From Pyrinomonadaceae bacterium (lineage in GTDB: Bacteria > Acidobacteriota > Blastocatellia > Pyrinomonadales > Pyrinomonadaceae), in NCBI GenBank assembly GCA_025054715.1, contig JANWYH010000002.1:248001-312000 (forward strand): a DNA stretch of 64,000 nt, given 5' to 3'. The position numbers and the translations under genes were made by a program. This document shows, piece by piece, positions 5,196 through 15,777 of this stretch (position 1 is the stretch's first letter; every line of letters begins with the position of its first letter). Under the pieces are notes generated by a model. That model was not told the origin of the DNA and did not search any database. It saw nothing but the letters and a program-made list of their open reading frames with translations.

Positions 5196-6683
5196 TTACA
5201 TGATGCGACTGCTCGTGACGGTTTTAACTACTCTAGGGCGAGTTTCCGTGAGTTTTTCATTTCTGGTTTTGGGTTCTATGATGATTGGTCTGAAAATATT
5301 GTTTTGTTGAGATTTTTCAGCTCCTTTTTGTTTGTTTTGAATGCTTTGTTTTGATTGCTCATCTTCAAAGAGAACTGACACATCTTGTTTTTTCGTAAGC
5401 TTCGGTTTTTGTTTTGTTTGAGGCAAGATGTCTTCTATATCTTCATTTTCTCCGCCATCTAGTAGTATTGAAGTTTTTTCATCGACTTTAGGTTTCGGTG
5501 TAGGAATCTCTTTTGCGATGTAGTAGTTAGGTTTCTGGAAAAGTCTTTTTTCAAGGGCTTTGTATATTTTGCCGGCAATAATTGCTGCAGTTTTCCCGCG
5601 CTCATTGTGTCCTCTGGTTAAAACGACAACCGTAAATTGAGGATTTACAACAGGGGCTACAGAAGCAAAGATTCCAAGCCAAGAGCCTTGACCGATGCAT
5701 GATCCAGTTTTTCCAGCAACATTGAGATATGAAACGCCGGAAGATCGAGCCGTTCCGTAATTGACTGCAGCAATCATTCCAGGTAGAACACTCTGTAAAT
5801 TTTCTGCGGAAAGAGGTATCTGGCGGCGTAGAAATCCTTGGAAGGATACTTTTTGGGAGGCGACTTTCGGTATTTGCGGAACTATTATTTTTCCGTTATT
5901 CGCTATTGCAGAGATCATAACAGCAAGCTGTATGGGAGTAGCTTCCACTGAGTCTCCGTGTGAATAGATTCTTGGATTTTGGTTTGCAAAGGGAAGTTGT
6001 CCAGGGTATTCCCCTTCCAAGTTGATACCAGTTTTCTCGCCTAAACCTAGTAAATGAGCATAGAACAAAAACTTTTCATTCCCTAGGACTGAGCCGACCC
6101 TTTGAAAATACGCATTATTTGAATAGGCGAGCGCATCCGTTAAATCCAATCTGTAAGGCTGAAATGAGATCTCGCCTGATTTTTGGATAAGCCCTTCGTT
6201 TAAGCCTGCTATTGCTGTAATAAGTTTTATTGTTGAACAAGGTTTGAAGCCACGCCTAACGGCCCAGTTTTGATTTACAATGGTAAGGATTCTGCCACTT
6301 TGTGTTTCCATAACGACGATAGTGCCAGCTTTCCGGCCAAGAGCAGATACAGCAACGCTTCTTATTTCAAGGTCTTCGCCTTCGGTTTGATCAGACTGAA
6401 TGTTTATAAGAGTTTCTTCGATAAGACTTCTTTCAAAAGCTACCTGCTTTTCTATTGCCAGACGGATGGCTTCTTGGCGTTTTCGCTCCTCTGAGAGTCT
6501 TTTCTTGAGTTCTTCCTCAGCTCTTTGACGTGTTCTTATAGTAGTGATTTTCTGTTTATGAGTTTCCTTTTTCTGACCAGTTTTTGTCATGATTGCAGGT
6601 TTTCTGCTCTGGGACGGCGTATAGGCAGCAAAAAAGAAAAACACAAGAATTATTGCTAAGAACATTCTAAAAAGGAGGGACAT
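5196..6683 (-). CDS. Penicillin-binding protein, single transpeptidase domain
   Basis: A serine DD-transpeptidase for peptidoglycan cross-linking, anchored by one N-terminal membrane segment (FRMFLAIILVFFFFAAY). I chose the ATG at 6683 (495 residues) because GAGAGG lies just upstream and it puts the anchor at the N-terminus; an ATG at 6740 in the same frame is less likely. All three active-site motifs are present: Ser150-T-I-Lys153, S-N-N at 188-190, and KTGS at 325-328. Between anchor and catalytic domain is only a short charged coiled coil (about 45-95), not the dimerisation domain of FtsI/MrdA class B enzymes. After the catalytic domain comes a Lys/Glu/Gln-rich tail of about 100 residues. 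It resembles short PbpA-like proteins; the exact class is uncertain. Confidence 0.88.
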   Translation of the reverse strand: MSLLFRMFLAIILVFFFFAAYTPSQSRKPAIMTKTGQKKETHKQKITTIRTRQRAEEELKKRLSEERKRQEAIRLAIEKQVAFERSLIEETLINIQSDQTEGEDLEIRSVAVSALGRKAGTIVVMETQSGRILTIVNQNWAVRRGFKPCSTIKLITAIAGLNEGLIQKSGEISFQPYRLDLTDALAYSNNAYFQRVGSVLGNEKFLFYAHLLGLGEKTGINLEGEYPGQLPFANQNPRIYSHGDSVEATPIQLAVMISAIANNGKIIVPQIPKVASQKVSFQGFLRRQIPLSAENLQSVLPGMIAAVNYGTARSSGVSYLNVAGKTGSCIGQGSWLGIFASVAPVVNPQFTVVVLTRGHNERGKTAAIIAGKIYKALEKRLFQKPNYYIAKEIPTPKPKVDEKTSILLDGGENEDIEDILPQTKQKPKLTKKQDVSVLFEDEQSKQSIQNKQKGAEKSQQNNIFRPIIIEPKTRNEKLTETRPRVVKTVTSSRIM

Positions 6684-8321: not shown

Positions 8322-9653
8322 ATGTCCAGAAGAACTATTTTAGTCGTTGATGATGAGAAAAATCAGCGTGAGATTTTACGGATGATTTTATCGAGCGAAG
8401 GATATGATGTAACTACAGCAAGTTCAGGCGAAGCTGCAATGAAGTTTGTCAGAGAAAAACATTTTGACTTAGTTTTGACGGACCTCAAGATGACAGGAAT
8501 GAGTGGAGTTGATTTGTTAAGAGAGCTAGTTGCTTTTGACAAATCAATAATAGTAATCTTGCTGACTGCTCATGGAACGGTTGATTCAGCTTTTGAGGCG
8601 AAGGAACTTGGGGCGTTTGCTTATCTGCAGAAGCCTTATGATAGGGATAAACTACTTGAAACGATAGAGCGGGCTTTAAGTAAACTGAATCAGCTTGACA
8701 CCGAGATAATATCGGCTTCGCCTCAAATGGATAAGGTAAAGAAGATGATTTTGAAAGTTGCCCGTTCAAATTCCACTGTTCTCATAAGAGGGGAATCTGG
8801 AACAGGAAAAGAACTGATAGCTCGGGCTATTCATCAGAATAGCTTGCGTTCAAATGCGATTTTTCAAGCGGTTAACTGTGCCGCAATAAATGAGAATCTT
8901 CTCGAATCGGAGCTTTTCGGTCACGAAAAAGGAGCTTTTACGGGCGCTGTTAGCGAAAAGAAGGGTTTATTTGAAGTTGCCGACGGTGGTACGCTTTTTT
9001 TGGACGAAATAGGAGAGCTTGATACGTCTCTTCAGGCAAAGTTACTTCGGGCTCTTCAAGAAAAGACCGTTAGAAGAGTTGGTGGAACGAAGGAAATTCC
9101 TGTTGATGTTCGTGTAATTGCTGCTACTAATCGGGATTTATTGAAAATGACTCAGGATGGAAGGTTTCGTGAAGACCTTTATTATCGCCTTAATGTGCTT
9201 TCCATAGAAGTTCCTCCGCTTAGGGAGCGTCGAACAGATATTCCTCTCTTGATAGATTACTTCATTAAAAAACATACAAAGAATACTCCTAACAAGGTAA
9301 AAGGAATATCCGCGGAGGCAAGAAGGGTTTTGCTCGATTATTGGTATCCAGGGAATGTTCGACAACTGGAGTCAGCAATTGAGCGGGCGGTTTTGCTCGC
9401 TGAAGGTGATTTGATTCAGGTTGAAGACCTACCGCCGGAAATTGTCAAGGCAGAGGCGGCTTCAAGTAACAGCGAGCATGTTTTCAAGCTGCCGCCAAAC
9501 GGGATAAACTTTGAAGAGGTTGAGAAAAGTCTAATAATCCAAGCTATGGAGCGGACGGACTACAACATAACAAGAGCTGCAAAACTGCTAGGTTTGACTT
9601 TTAGAACACTGCAGTATCGCCTTGAAAAGTTTGGAATCAAAAGGGAAAAATGA
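8322..9653 (+). CDS. NtrC-family sigma-54-dependent response regulator
   Basis: Transcription activator of 443 residues. Receiver domain 1-120 with phospho-acceptor Asp54; AAA+ domain with Walker A GESGTGKE near 157 and the sigma-54 contact loop GAFTGA at 204-209; C-terminal Fis-type helix-turn-helix about 400-440 ([19 protein letters not shown]). All activating residues are intact, so it should drive sigma-54 promoters after phosphorylation by the adjacent kinase. The stop overlaps the start of a 58-residue membrane protein by ATGA. Target genes are unknown; I did not find a convincing TGGCAC-N5-TTGC element close by. Confidence 0.96.
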
Positions 9654-13120: not shown

Positions 13121-13152
13121 TAATAAAAAAGCCCTGCCCTTAAGGGCAAGGC
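13121..13152 (-). terminator. Intrinsic terminator after the cysteine-rich protein gene
   Basis: Read on the minus strand, an inverted repeat centred on TTAA (13131-13152, one mismatch, GCCTTGCCC with GGGCAGGGC) is followed by a run of six T (A-run at 13125-13130 on the plus strand). It lies 30 bases after the cysteine-rich gene and 15 bases before tilS. Confidence 0.88.
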
Positions 13153-13182: not shown

Positions 13183-13581
13183 CTAAGCTCGCTTTGAGCA
13201 ACAAGCTGATGAGTTGCAGCAAGAAGCGCCTTCTTCACAGCAATCTTTTTCTGAAGAAGATGCTTTCATCTTTTTAAGCGGGCAGCTTTCTGATGAATTG
13301 CAGCAAGAAGTGCAACAAGTTCCACCCATTGCGCATCTGCCATCCTTGCAGCAATCCGGCATACCGCAGCATTCTTCGCAATTATCACAGCAATCGCTTT
13401 TTGCTTGCGTAGAAGCAGAAGCTGTTGAAATCGTAGAAGAATCAGTAAACGATTCATGCTGAGTGATCGGGCAATACTGGTTTTCTTCTGTCGTGGATAC
13501 ATTTGATATTTTACCAGCTATTGTAAGAGCTGAGACGACAAAAATAGCGAACGCAACAAAGTAAAATACTTTTTTCCTCAT
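13183..13581 (-). CDS. Cysteine-rich exported protein, 20 Cys in 132 residues
   Basis: I do not recognise the family. An N-terminal hydrophobic segment (FYFVAFAIFVVSALTIAG, residues 6-23) looks like a signal peptide or membrane anchor. From residue 37 on there are 20 cysteines, of which 16 form eight Cys-Cys pairs, in contexts such as DCCDNCEECCG, GTCCTSCC and ACCSKRA, with few hydrophobic residues. This is typical of metal-binding or disulfide-dense proteins; a role in binding copper, zinc or another soft metal is inference only. A ribosome site AAAGGAG is 13 bases before the ATG. It follows a second small Cys-containing exported protein gene and ends at an intrinsic terminator, so the pair may be an operon. 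Confidence 0.8.
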   Translation of the reverse strand: MRKKVFYFVAFAIFVVSALTIAGKISNVSTTEENQYCPITQHESFTDSSTISTASASTQAKSDCCDNCEECCGMPDCCKDGRCAMGGTCCTSCCNSSESCPLKKMKASSSEKDCCEEGASCCNSSACCSKRA

Positions 13582-13622
13582 AGTTTCGTGTTCTCCTTTT
13601 TTGGTTAGATTTGATACTTTTT

Positions 13623-13637
13623 CGGCAAAACTTGCCG
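13623..13637. promoter_or_regulatory. Perfect inverted repeat upstream of the cysteine-rich gene
   Basis: CGGCAA-AAC-TTGCCG (plus strand), a 6-3-6 palindrome about 42 bases before the ATG of the cysteine-rich protein gene. No T-run follows on either strand, so it is less likely to be a terminator. It could be an operator or a 5'-leader hairpin; this is inference. Confidence 0.35.
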
Positions 13638-13671
13638 TAGTTTTGAGTAATTCGTCTTTTGCGGATTGTTT

Positions 13672-14070
13672 TTAGATTCGGAGAACACGATTTTTTATGT
13701 GAAGTTTTTCTTGTGGGACTGGAGGACACAAGCAAAGCCTATTAGACTTTACTTCCTGTTTTGATTGCTCATGTCGTAAAAAGAAACTTACTCTTTCAAG
13801 GCTTGGTTCTAGAGTGTTATTTTGAGATTTTTCTTCTTTTCTTGTTTTATCGAAGAGCTTGATAAATGGCGAACAGCAATCAAAGCCAAGGCTTGATCTT
13901 TGTAGGGAATTAACTGTTTCTTGTCTCCTCGAGTTTTCGCAGTGGGCTATTTTGGCAAGTGGGCAACTGGCTTGGATTGCCTCTTCTGCTTTCATGTTAA
14001 GGCAGCAGAAAAGGAAAGCAACACCACTCAGCCAAAGAACTAAAAAGGTAGTGAAAACTCTCCTGACCAT
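13672..14070 (-). CDS. Hypothetical small exported protein
   Basis: Unrecognised protein of 132 residues. The ATG at 14070 was chosen over a GTG 6 bases upstream. The N-terminus is a signal-like segment (RRVFTTFLVLWLSGVAFLFCC), followed by ASCPLAKIAHC and a polar region with a late CLCPPVPQEK motif. The CPLxK pattern recurs in the neighbouring cysteine-rich protein (SCPLKKMK), which hints at a shared theme such as metal binding. It lies 36 bases after murJ and 90 bases before the cysteine-rich gene, all on the minus strand. No overlap with a better ORF. The function is unknown. Confidence 0.6.
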   Translation of the reverse strand: MVRRVFTTFLVLWLSGVAFLFCCLNMKAEEAIQASCPLAKIAHCENSRRQETVNSLQRSSLGFDCCSPFIKLFDKTRKEEKSQNNTLEPSLERVSFFLRHEQSKQEVKSNRLCLCPPVPQEKLHIKNRVLRI

Positions 14071-14106
14071 TACCACTTACCGATTATAGTATTTTTGCTT
14101 AGAGAA

Positions 14107-15777
14107 TCAAATTTTCAGACGTCTATTTTTAAGATATTCGGAAAGCTTTTCAACTTCTTCTATTTTTAACAGTTTTGCGAGCAGGAGAAACGAAAGCACT
14201 CCGAGGACAATTGGTACAAAGGCTTCTATGAGTTTGTATGAGAGGTTTTGAGCGCTGAAACGATCGTGTAAGAAATTGTAGCTAAACCAACAAACAAACG
14301 ACATTACGGTTGAGGCTATTCCTACTTTCAGGAAGGCAGAAGCGATCTTTTTGCCATTTATTCGACCTATTCTCTGTCGCATGACAAAGACTAAGATGAA
14401 GAAATTAACTAAAGCAACACAAGAAGTTGCAAGAGCAACGCCAACATGTGCTAATCCGTGAGGATGATTTTCTGATACGCCAAAGCCAGAAAGCCAATTT
14501 CGGAGGCTATAGGAGGCTAATGCGTTGACTAGAATTGAGATAAGGGCGGCGATCATAGGAGTTTTTGCATCGTTTAGAGCGTAGAAAGCAGGAGAAAGCA
14601 CCTTTATTGCGGCGTAACCTGTCAAGCCGATTGAATAACCTGTCAAAGCCCAAGCTGTCATAGGAACATCTGCTTCCGTAAATGCTCCGCCATGTGAGTA
14701 AAGAAGTCTTACAATGGGCTCTCCAAGCACAATCAAGCCGCAAGCAGAAGGTAAAGTCATCAAAAATACGAGATTGAGCGAATCTGAAAGTGTGTTTCTG
14801 AAGTCTGTCATCTTATTTTCACTTGCTAGCCTTGAAAGAACAGGCACGGAAGCGATTCCGACGGCAACGCCAAAAAGACCTATAGGAAATTGCATCAGAC
14901 GGAATGCGTATTGAAGCCATGACACCCCGCCTTCAATTCCAGAAACAAAAAAGGTATTTACCATGACATTTATTTGAACGGCACTCGTTCCCAAAATAGC
15001 GGGTGTCATCAAACTCATCACGCGTCTTACTCCTTCGTCCGTAAAACTTACGATTGGTGAAAATCGAAAGCCTACTTTTAGCAATGAAGGCACTTGGATT
15101 AAAAATTGTGCAGTGCCGCCGATCAAAGTTCCAATTGCCATGCCAATAATGGCCCACTGGGCATTTTCAGAGGGAATTAGGTTTCTATCGGTTGATCTTT
15201 CCCATCCTCCACCTGAAAGCCAGTAAGCAAATGCGAGACCCGTTATGATTGAAACTACGTTGAAGGCTGTGGAAGCCGAAGCAGGTATGCCGAAGACTCC
15301 TTTTGTATTTAGCACGCCCATCGCTACTGCGGCAAGTGCAACAAGCAAGATAAAAGGAAACATTATTTGAGTTAACGTGGTTGCAAGTAATGCTTTTTCT
15401 GTTGAGAAGCCATCAGCGATTAGGTTAACTATTTGCTCAGAGAAGAGGATACCAAATATCGTTATTATACTTAAAACAATTGCGACTGCATTCATTACCA
15501 AAGAAGCTAAACGCCATGCCTCCTTTTCGCCCTTATTTACTTGATAATCAGTGAATACTTTGACGAAAGCAGCTGAAAGAGCCCCTTCGGCAAAAAGGTC
15601 GCGCAAAACATTTGGAATACGGAATGCCACTTGATAAGCATCATTCAGGAATCCAGCACCGAAGTAATAGGCATAGACTTGCTCTCGCACTAGCCCCATG
15701 ACGCGCGAAAACATTACGGCGATAGAAACTATTCCAGCAGATTTTGCAACACTTTTTTGCTTGGTTACTTGTGTCAT
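14107..15777 (-). CDS. murJ: Lipid II flippase MurJ
   Basis: Moves lipid II across the inner membrane for peptidoglycan synthesis. 556 residues with about 14 hydrophobic segments, the normal MurJ/MviN size. The N-terminus carries the family signature: SRVMGLVREQVYAYYFGAG, then AYQVAFRIPNVLRDLFAEG (the conserved NxLRxLFAEG element) and GALSAAFV. Internal TPAILGTSAVQINVMV and GLTGYAAIKVLSPAFYA also match. ATG start at 15777; uvrA ends 41 bases upstream on the same strand. Confidence 0.96.
   Translation of the reverse strand: MTQVTKQKSVAKSAGIVSIAVMFSRVMGLVREQVYAYYFGAGFLNDAYQVAFRIPNVLRDLFAEGALSAAFVKVFTDYQVNKGEKEAWRLASLVMNAVAIVLSIITIFGILFSEQIVNLIADGFSTEKALLATTLTQIMFPFILLVALAAVAMGVLNTKGVFGIPASASTAFNVVSIITGLAFAYWLSGGGWERSTDRNLIPSENAQWAIIGMAIGTLIGGTAQFLIQVPSLLKVGFRFSPIVSFTDEGVRRVMSLMTPAILGTSAVQINVMVNTFFVSGIEGGVSWLQYAFRLMQFPIGLFGVAVGIASVPVLSRLASENKMTDFRNTLSDSLNLVFLMTLPSACGLIVLGEPIVRLLYSHGGAFTEADVPMTAWALTGYSIGLTGYAAIKVLSPAFYALNDAKTPMIAALISILVNALASYSLRNWLSGFGVSENHPHGLAHVGVALATSCVALVNFFILVFVMRQRIGRINGKKIASAFLKVGIASTVMSFVCWFSYNFLHDRFSAQNLSYKLIEAFVPIVLGVLSFLLLAKLLKIEEVEKLSEYLKNRRLKI

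Follow-up and report, generated by a model that had tools for sequence, protein, structure and literature searches.

Candidate copper-responsive leader genes in Blastocatellia whose last codons pair with the Shine-Dalgarno region of the gene they precede

In the 64,000-nucleotide stretch of DNA analysed here (the window), the last codons of a small gene, B, are complementary to the Shine-Dalgarno (SD) region of the following gene, A, which encodes a Cys-Cys-rich protein predicted to be exported. B codons AAT CGT GTT CTC CGA hold TCGTGTTCTCC, which forms 11 bp with GGAGAACACGA ahead of A. This complementarity was missed by the original prediction, in which the two proteins were put forward as a possible metal-binding pair. 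B and A are proposed here to constitute a two-gene copper-response unit, and we put the probability of this reading at about two in three, as the best of those compared and not as the product of all its steps. That B acts as a cis-acting translational leader is very probable. Copper is the likely signal, while arrest at the stop codon of B is given slightly better than even odds.

According to this proposal, B would be exported co-translationally, and when the ribosome reaches its stop codon a Cys site 61–70 residues back would have newly emerged in the periplasm. About 50 extended residues are needed to cover the path between the peptidyl transferase centre and SecYEG's periplasmic end (PMC7513700), so that this Cys should be just exposed with the ribosome at the stop. 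Copper, probably Cu(I), may then be bound by the nascent chain at that site together with other Cys sites, and would slow or arrest termination through the C-terminal sequence [CN]CVF[RL]I-stop. The held ribosome would cover the last codons of B, which otherwise pair with the SD of A, and A would be translated mainly while the ribosome is held. Its product, largely unstructured and exported, would serve as a Cys-Cys-rich Cu(I) sink. Another soft metal may take the place of copper as ligand, or B may respond to redox or export state.

The genes lie on the minus strand in the order murJ, B, A, a terminator-like hairpin and tilS (Table 1); tilS, like murJ, was identified from its sequence. B is directly 3′ of murJ on the same strand, with its own promoter-like element just ahead of it. 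The location of the pair between murJ and a terminator, as predicted originally, was borne out, and so was the 6-3-6 palindrome in the gap. The palindrome was considered as a terminator and rejected, since the transcribed strand has no T-run after it. Two tRNAs were the only Rfam matches in the window. Translation of B may start at the ATG given originally (14070, 132 aa) or at an in-frame GTG (14076, 134 aa).

Table 1. Positions of the B-A unit and neighbouring features, numbered along the window.
Feature	Position	Strand	Remarks
murJ	14107-15777	minus	named by sequence
Promoter-like TTGATT-16-TATAAT, just 5′ of B	14083..14110	minus	consensus match only
Gene B, predicted exported leader/sensor	13672..14076	minus	N-terminal hydrophobic helix, Cys sites, C-terminus KNRVLRI
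B terminal codons R-V-L-R-I-stop	13672..13691	minus	conserved; proposed termination-arrest sequence
Anti-Shine-Dalgarno arm TCGTGTTCTCC	13680..13690	minus	within last codons of B, N-R-V-L-R
B-A gap, loop of the long-range helix	13582..13671	minus	90 nt
Palindrome CGGCAA-AAC-TTGCCG (6-3-6)	13623..13637	.	local hairpin within the loop
Shine-Dalgarno arm GGAGAACACGA, 5′ of the ATG of A	13586..13596	minus	exact complement of the anti-SD arm
A start codon ATG	13581-13579	minus	
Gene A, Cys-Cys-rich, predicted exported; controlled gene, likely metal sink	13183..13581	minus	132 aa, 20 Cys
Intrinsic-terminator-like hairpin, 3′ of A	13131..13152	minus	

The Cys content of A, described in the original prediction, was reproduced in full. 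Sixteen of its Cys lie in eight CC doublets, against 2.9 doublets expected after shuffling its residues, and the probability of at least 20 Cys in 132 residues is 9e-20 at the window background of 0.79% Cys. The shared CPLxK-type motif was likewise found, as CPLKK in A and CPLAK in B. Bacterial metallothioneins (SmtA, MymT) and the exported copper storage protein Csp1 are small or Cys-rich and presumed to bind soft metals. A is similar in being small, Cys-rich and presumably soft-metal binding. It differs from them in its CC doublets, in lacking any metallothionein match in Pfam and NCBIfam, and in that AlphaFold2 does not predict a helical bundle for it. The profile searches proposed originally assigned neither protein to a curated family: neither A nor its relatives had a convincing match in Pfam or NCBIfam, and B and all members of its family had no informative one. 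From its Cys content and context, A is likely an exported metal sink. In B, AlphaFold2 predicts an N-terminal helix (residues 2-36) with high pLDDT; past the N-helix, confidence is low for both proteins (pLDDT 55 and 61). Matches to Fab chains in PDB profile searches were discarded as an artefact, being signal-peptide matches at positions 1-40.

The pairing between the end of B and the downstream SD was studied across loci, the first set of which was found by the C-terminal pattern of B and the second by profile search; downstream gene starts were set by rule, three of them by hand. In a majority of the initial 30 loci, the minimum-energy fold also contains this long-range helix. The last 24 nt of B formed duplexes with their own SD at a mean of -12.3 kcal/mol, against -9.1 kcal/mol with permuted partners. 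The specificity of cognate pairing reached z = -10.7 (p < 5e-5) in 67 loci and z = -6.9 in 36 loci collected once the hypothesis had been formed, although such permutation scores overstate significance because related genomes are not independent. Against kinship the analysis relied on two safeguards: control segments, and the loci collected later, which are themselves not fully independent phylogenetically. Segments from elsewhere in B or from the gap gave |z| <= 2.6 when taken over all loci, and ordinary neighbouring gene pairs at the same loci averaged -7.8 (n = 30, p = 5e-6). Synonymous recoding of the last codons of B weakened the pairing (z = -11.9; 58 of 67 loci), which indicates that codon choice in B is tuned. 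Between the window and a sister genome (G001), a synonymous CGT to CGC change in B is mirrored by an A to G change in the SD arm.

When a ribosome footprint was blocked at the stop codon of B in the calculated folds, the unpaired probability of the SD rose from 0.20 to 0.45, compared with 0.21 for an upstream control block. In the window locus another weak pairing limited this rise to 0.13, and duplexes were weak (-4 to -7 kcal/mol) in about ten loci; both results count against the leader reading. So does the setting of the pair, which in the window genome (2.45 Mb, G000:C16) is flanked by murJ and tilS without adjoining copper genes. The nearest CopA-type P-type ATPase found, the one strong match in that genome (G000:C16:356493-358271), is about 94 kb away on the same contig.

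The protein sequence of B is conserved in ways that the RNA pairing does not entirely explain. B of the window has eight Cys, with Cys sites at C24-C25, C38, C46 and C67-C68, and ends NRVLRI*, the family consensus being [CN]CVF[RL]I-stop. Invariant throughout the family are one Cys where the N-helix ends, another Cys (often as HC), a third Cys site and the final Ile. The last residue is Ile in all 67 loci, with ATT, ATC and ATA all in use and this codon paired in less than half of them. In the terminal codons third positions vary most, whereas the residues hold. The stop codon is TAG in 38 loci, TAA in 27 and TGA in two, against 43% TGA in long ORFs of the same loci (p = 7e-14). This scarcity of TGA and enrichment of TAG may reflect either RF1-dependent termination or extension of the helix. 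A Cys is found 61-70 residues from the C-terminus in 63 of 63 full-length copies (sd 2.8), although the length of B varies widely. Within the spacer (-16 to -58), pairwise identity is 10.5% and Cys are almost absent.

B also precedes genes of other kinds. At eight loci B is followed by a gene whose product is not Cys-rich: multicopper oxidases in L137 and L138 (PF07732, E = 1e-42 for L137), YtkA/FixH-like proteins with CusA-type RND pumps after them in L152, L164 and L166, another YtkA-like protein in L153, a long 'HEGH' protein with no Pfam match in L141, and in L086 a very short ORF that precedes an outer-membrane-type protein. Among 57 genes downstream of B, 5 matched multicopper oxidase, 6 YtkA, 4 ACR_tran and 6 redoxin families. 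The first three were absent from the 25 most frequent families among 59 genes upstream of B, a comparison in which single matches could be hidden and in which the downstream set includes non-A targets by design.

These observations bear on three other explanations. In the first, which is unlikely, the helix provides plain translational coupling for stoichiometry, and B (membrane-anchored) and A (soluble) are structural metal-binding proteins without nascent-chain sensing. The helix alone would suffice to couple the translation of A to that of B, and both proteins are Cys-containing, predicted to be exported and usually encoded side by side; this explanation does not account for unrelated copper genes headed by B, for a Cys-to-C-terminus spacing fixed across a spacer of random sequence, or for a final Ile kept through three codons. 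B heads unrelated copper genes, its 3′ codons pair with each downstream ribosome-binding site, and its C-terminal motif and Cys spacing suit a co-translational sensor or leader, so that a structural metal-binding partner is not the best reading of it. The metal-binding pair of the original prediction was thus upheld in part: export, conserved Cys, a copper context and A as a likely sink agree with it, but B is better read as a sensor or leader.

It is improbable that B monitors export or redox state, by a SecM/VemP-like logic or through Cys disulfides, with A answering thiol or envelope stress. The ruler would suit a force or export sensor equally well, and redoxin and thioredoxin-type genes occur downstream of B (6 of 57), though they are found upstream too (4 of 59); the targets are not sec, yidC or dsb genes but copper genes (multicopper oxidase, YtkA and RND). 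Marginally less probable still is a B C-terminus conserved solely as an RNA anti-SD with an inert peptide, as the core pairing positions overlapping codons -5 to -2 might suggest, since residues hold where third positions vary, Ile is invariant in a codon often left unpaired, and the Cys lies at a set distance from the C-terminus.

A check of relatives, as proposed originally, showed the B-A pair to be conserved as neighbours across Blastocatellia. With a profile of 28 B sequences, B was detected in 68 of 162 Blastocatellia genomes. No convincing match was obtained outside the class in a phylum sample of 297 genomes; marginal matches to B in 6 genomes (E 0.001-0.01) and one weak match to A were treated as noise. 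B-like genes with a gene for an A-like, CC-rich protein next to them on the 3′ side occur in further genera of the family (G020, G023, G027, G032) and also in different families of the class (G037, G045, G422, G343, G054). The Cys are retained in relatives, A-type targets having a median of 15 Cys in 130 aa (n = 58). The nearest named matches to B come from an Acidobacteria MAG and Pyrinomonadaceae MAGs, and a search of genome contigs with three closer B sequences gave three named MAG loci. The B-A gap has a median of 96 nt across the family. In the sister genome (L047, G001) it is 221 nt and contains several strong local hairpins, with the helix between the B end and the SD kept. No description of the B-A pair was found in the literature.

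The closest precedent for the mechanism proposed for B, by analogy, is CutF of the Rhodobacter capsulatus cutFOG operon, an exported leader whose Cu-binding and C-terminal arrest-like motifs open an RNA structure masking the cutO SD (PMC9973294). As with CutF, B is a small Cys-containing candidate leader, predicted to be exported and heading copper genes, with the downstream SD predicted to be masked by RNA structure, gaps mostly below 100 nt and a C-terminal motif thought to slow translation. B differs in ending [CN]CVF[RL]I-stop, while CutF has a PP motif within its last 15 residues, and in carrying the anti-SD inside its own last codons, where CutF has it in a stem-loop of the gap. The main proposed target of B is the Cys-Cys protein, which has a Sec-type signal, and that of CutF is a multicopper oxidase of the Tat type; oxidases are nonetheless headed by B too. 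With 134 aa and a predicted helix, B of the window lies within the filter used for CutF (< 150 aa and an N-terminal export signal; PMC9973294), and several of its relatives exceed 150 aa.

A second comparison is with CruR (Bordetella pertussis bp2923, DUF2946), a metal-responsive uORF heading copper operons. Its copper response became much weaker when its conserved 45-residue spacing was made five residues longer; it could do without its export signal, and its output, which copper represses, is Rho termination (PMC9426467). In B, as in CruR, a Cys motif stands at a conserved distance from a C-terminal arrest-like motif. However, B has CC or a single Cys instead of CXXC, and B of the window lacks RAPP; RPPP or RGPP occurs in some relatives only, about 15-18 residues from the end. 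The dispensable export signal and the Rho-dependent output are features of CruR. B was not assigned to either family because none of the 28 B proteins matched DUF2946 (E <= 1) and the PP of the window protein, 16-17 residues from the end, falls outside the last 15 and is absent from many relatives. Arrest peptides of a third kind (NSP-stop, NAP-stop and others) stall when a stop codon occupies the A site, and according to the same 2024 paper stalling itself was not demonstrated for CutF or CruR (PMC10987492). B resembles these peptides in its conserved residues up to the stop and the predicted masking of the downstream SD. They head sec and yidC genes; for B, arrest is proposed.

Co-translational metal sensing by exported leaders has had two worked cases so far, both proteobacterial and with proline-type C-termini. 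If the present reading is true, B would represent a leader family of its own from a different phylum, its ruler (Cys 61-70 residues before the stop) being very clear, and its dual-coded arm would be directly testable. It would also supply a regulator and a likely function for a widespread, unannotated family of exported Cys-Cys proteins. In its widest form, for which we put the odds a little below even, the proposal would be of class-wide, termination-type, metal-sensing arrest leaders. Their terminal codons would serve as both arrest peptide [CN]CVF[RL]I-stop and anti-Shine-Dalgarno, with synonymous codons re-tuned for each target, and they would control unnamed exported Cys-Cys copper sponges, multicopper oxidases and RND pumps.

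In L141 (G026:C113) two copies of B occur in one cluster (6014-6418 and 9218-9652), the first heading the long 'HEGH' protein and the second an A-type protein, as if the leader family were reused gene by gene. Some A genes apparently have no B upstream, which is counted against the leader reading: in L077 (G033) A directly follows a CusB-type gene, and in L082 (G375) it lies 26 nt after ychF. B of L055 (G359) contains an in-frame TGA and the A-type reading frame of L161 (G387) is unusually short; these units may be broken or mis-assembled. A redoxin/TlpA-like protein with the N-terminal motif CC(E/A)(E/D)CWAEADR is encoded 3′ of A in several families (for example downstream of A in L085 and L134, and near the pair in L003), and may be part of the same response.
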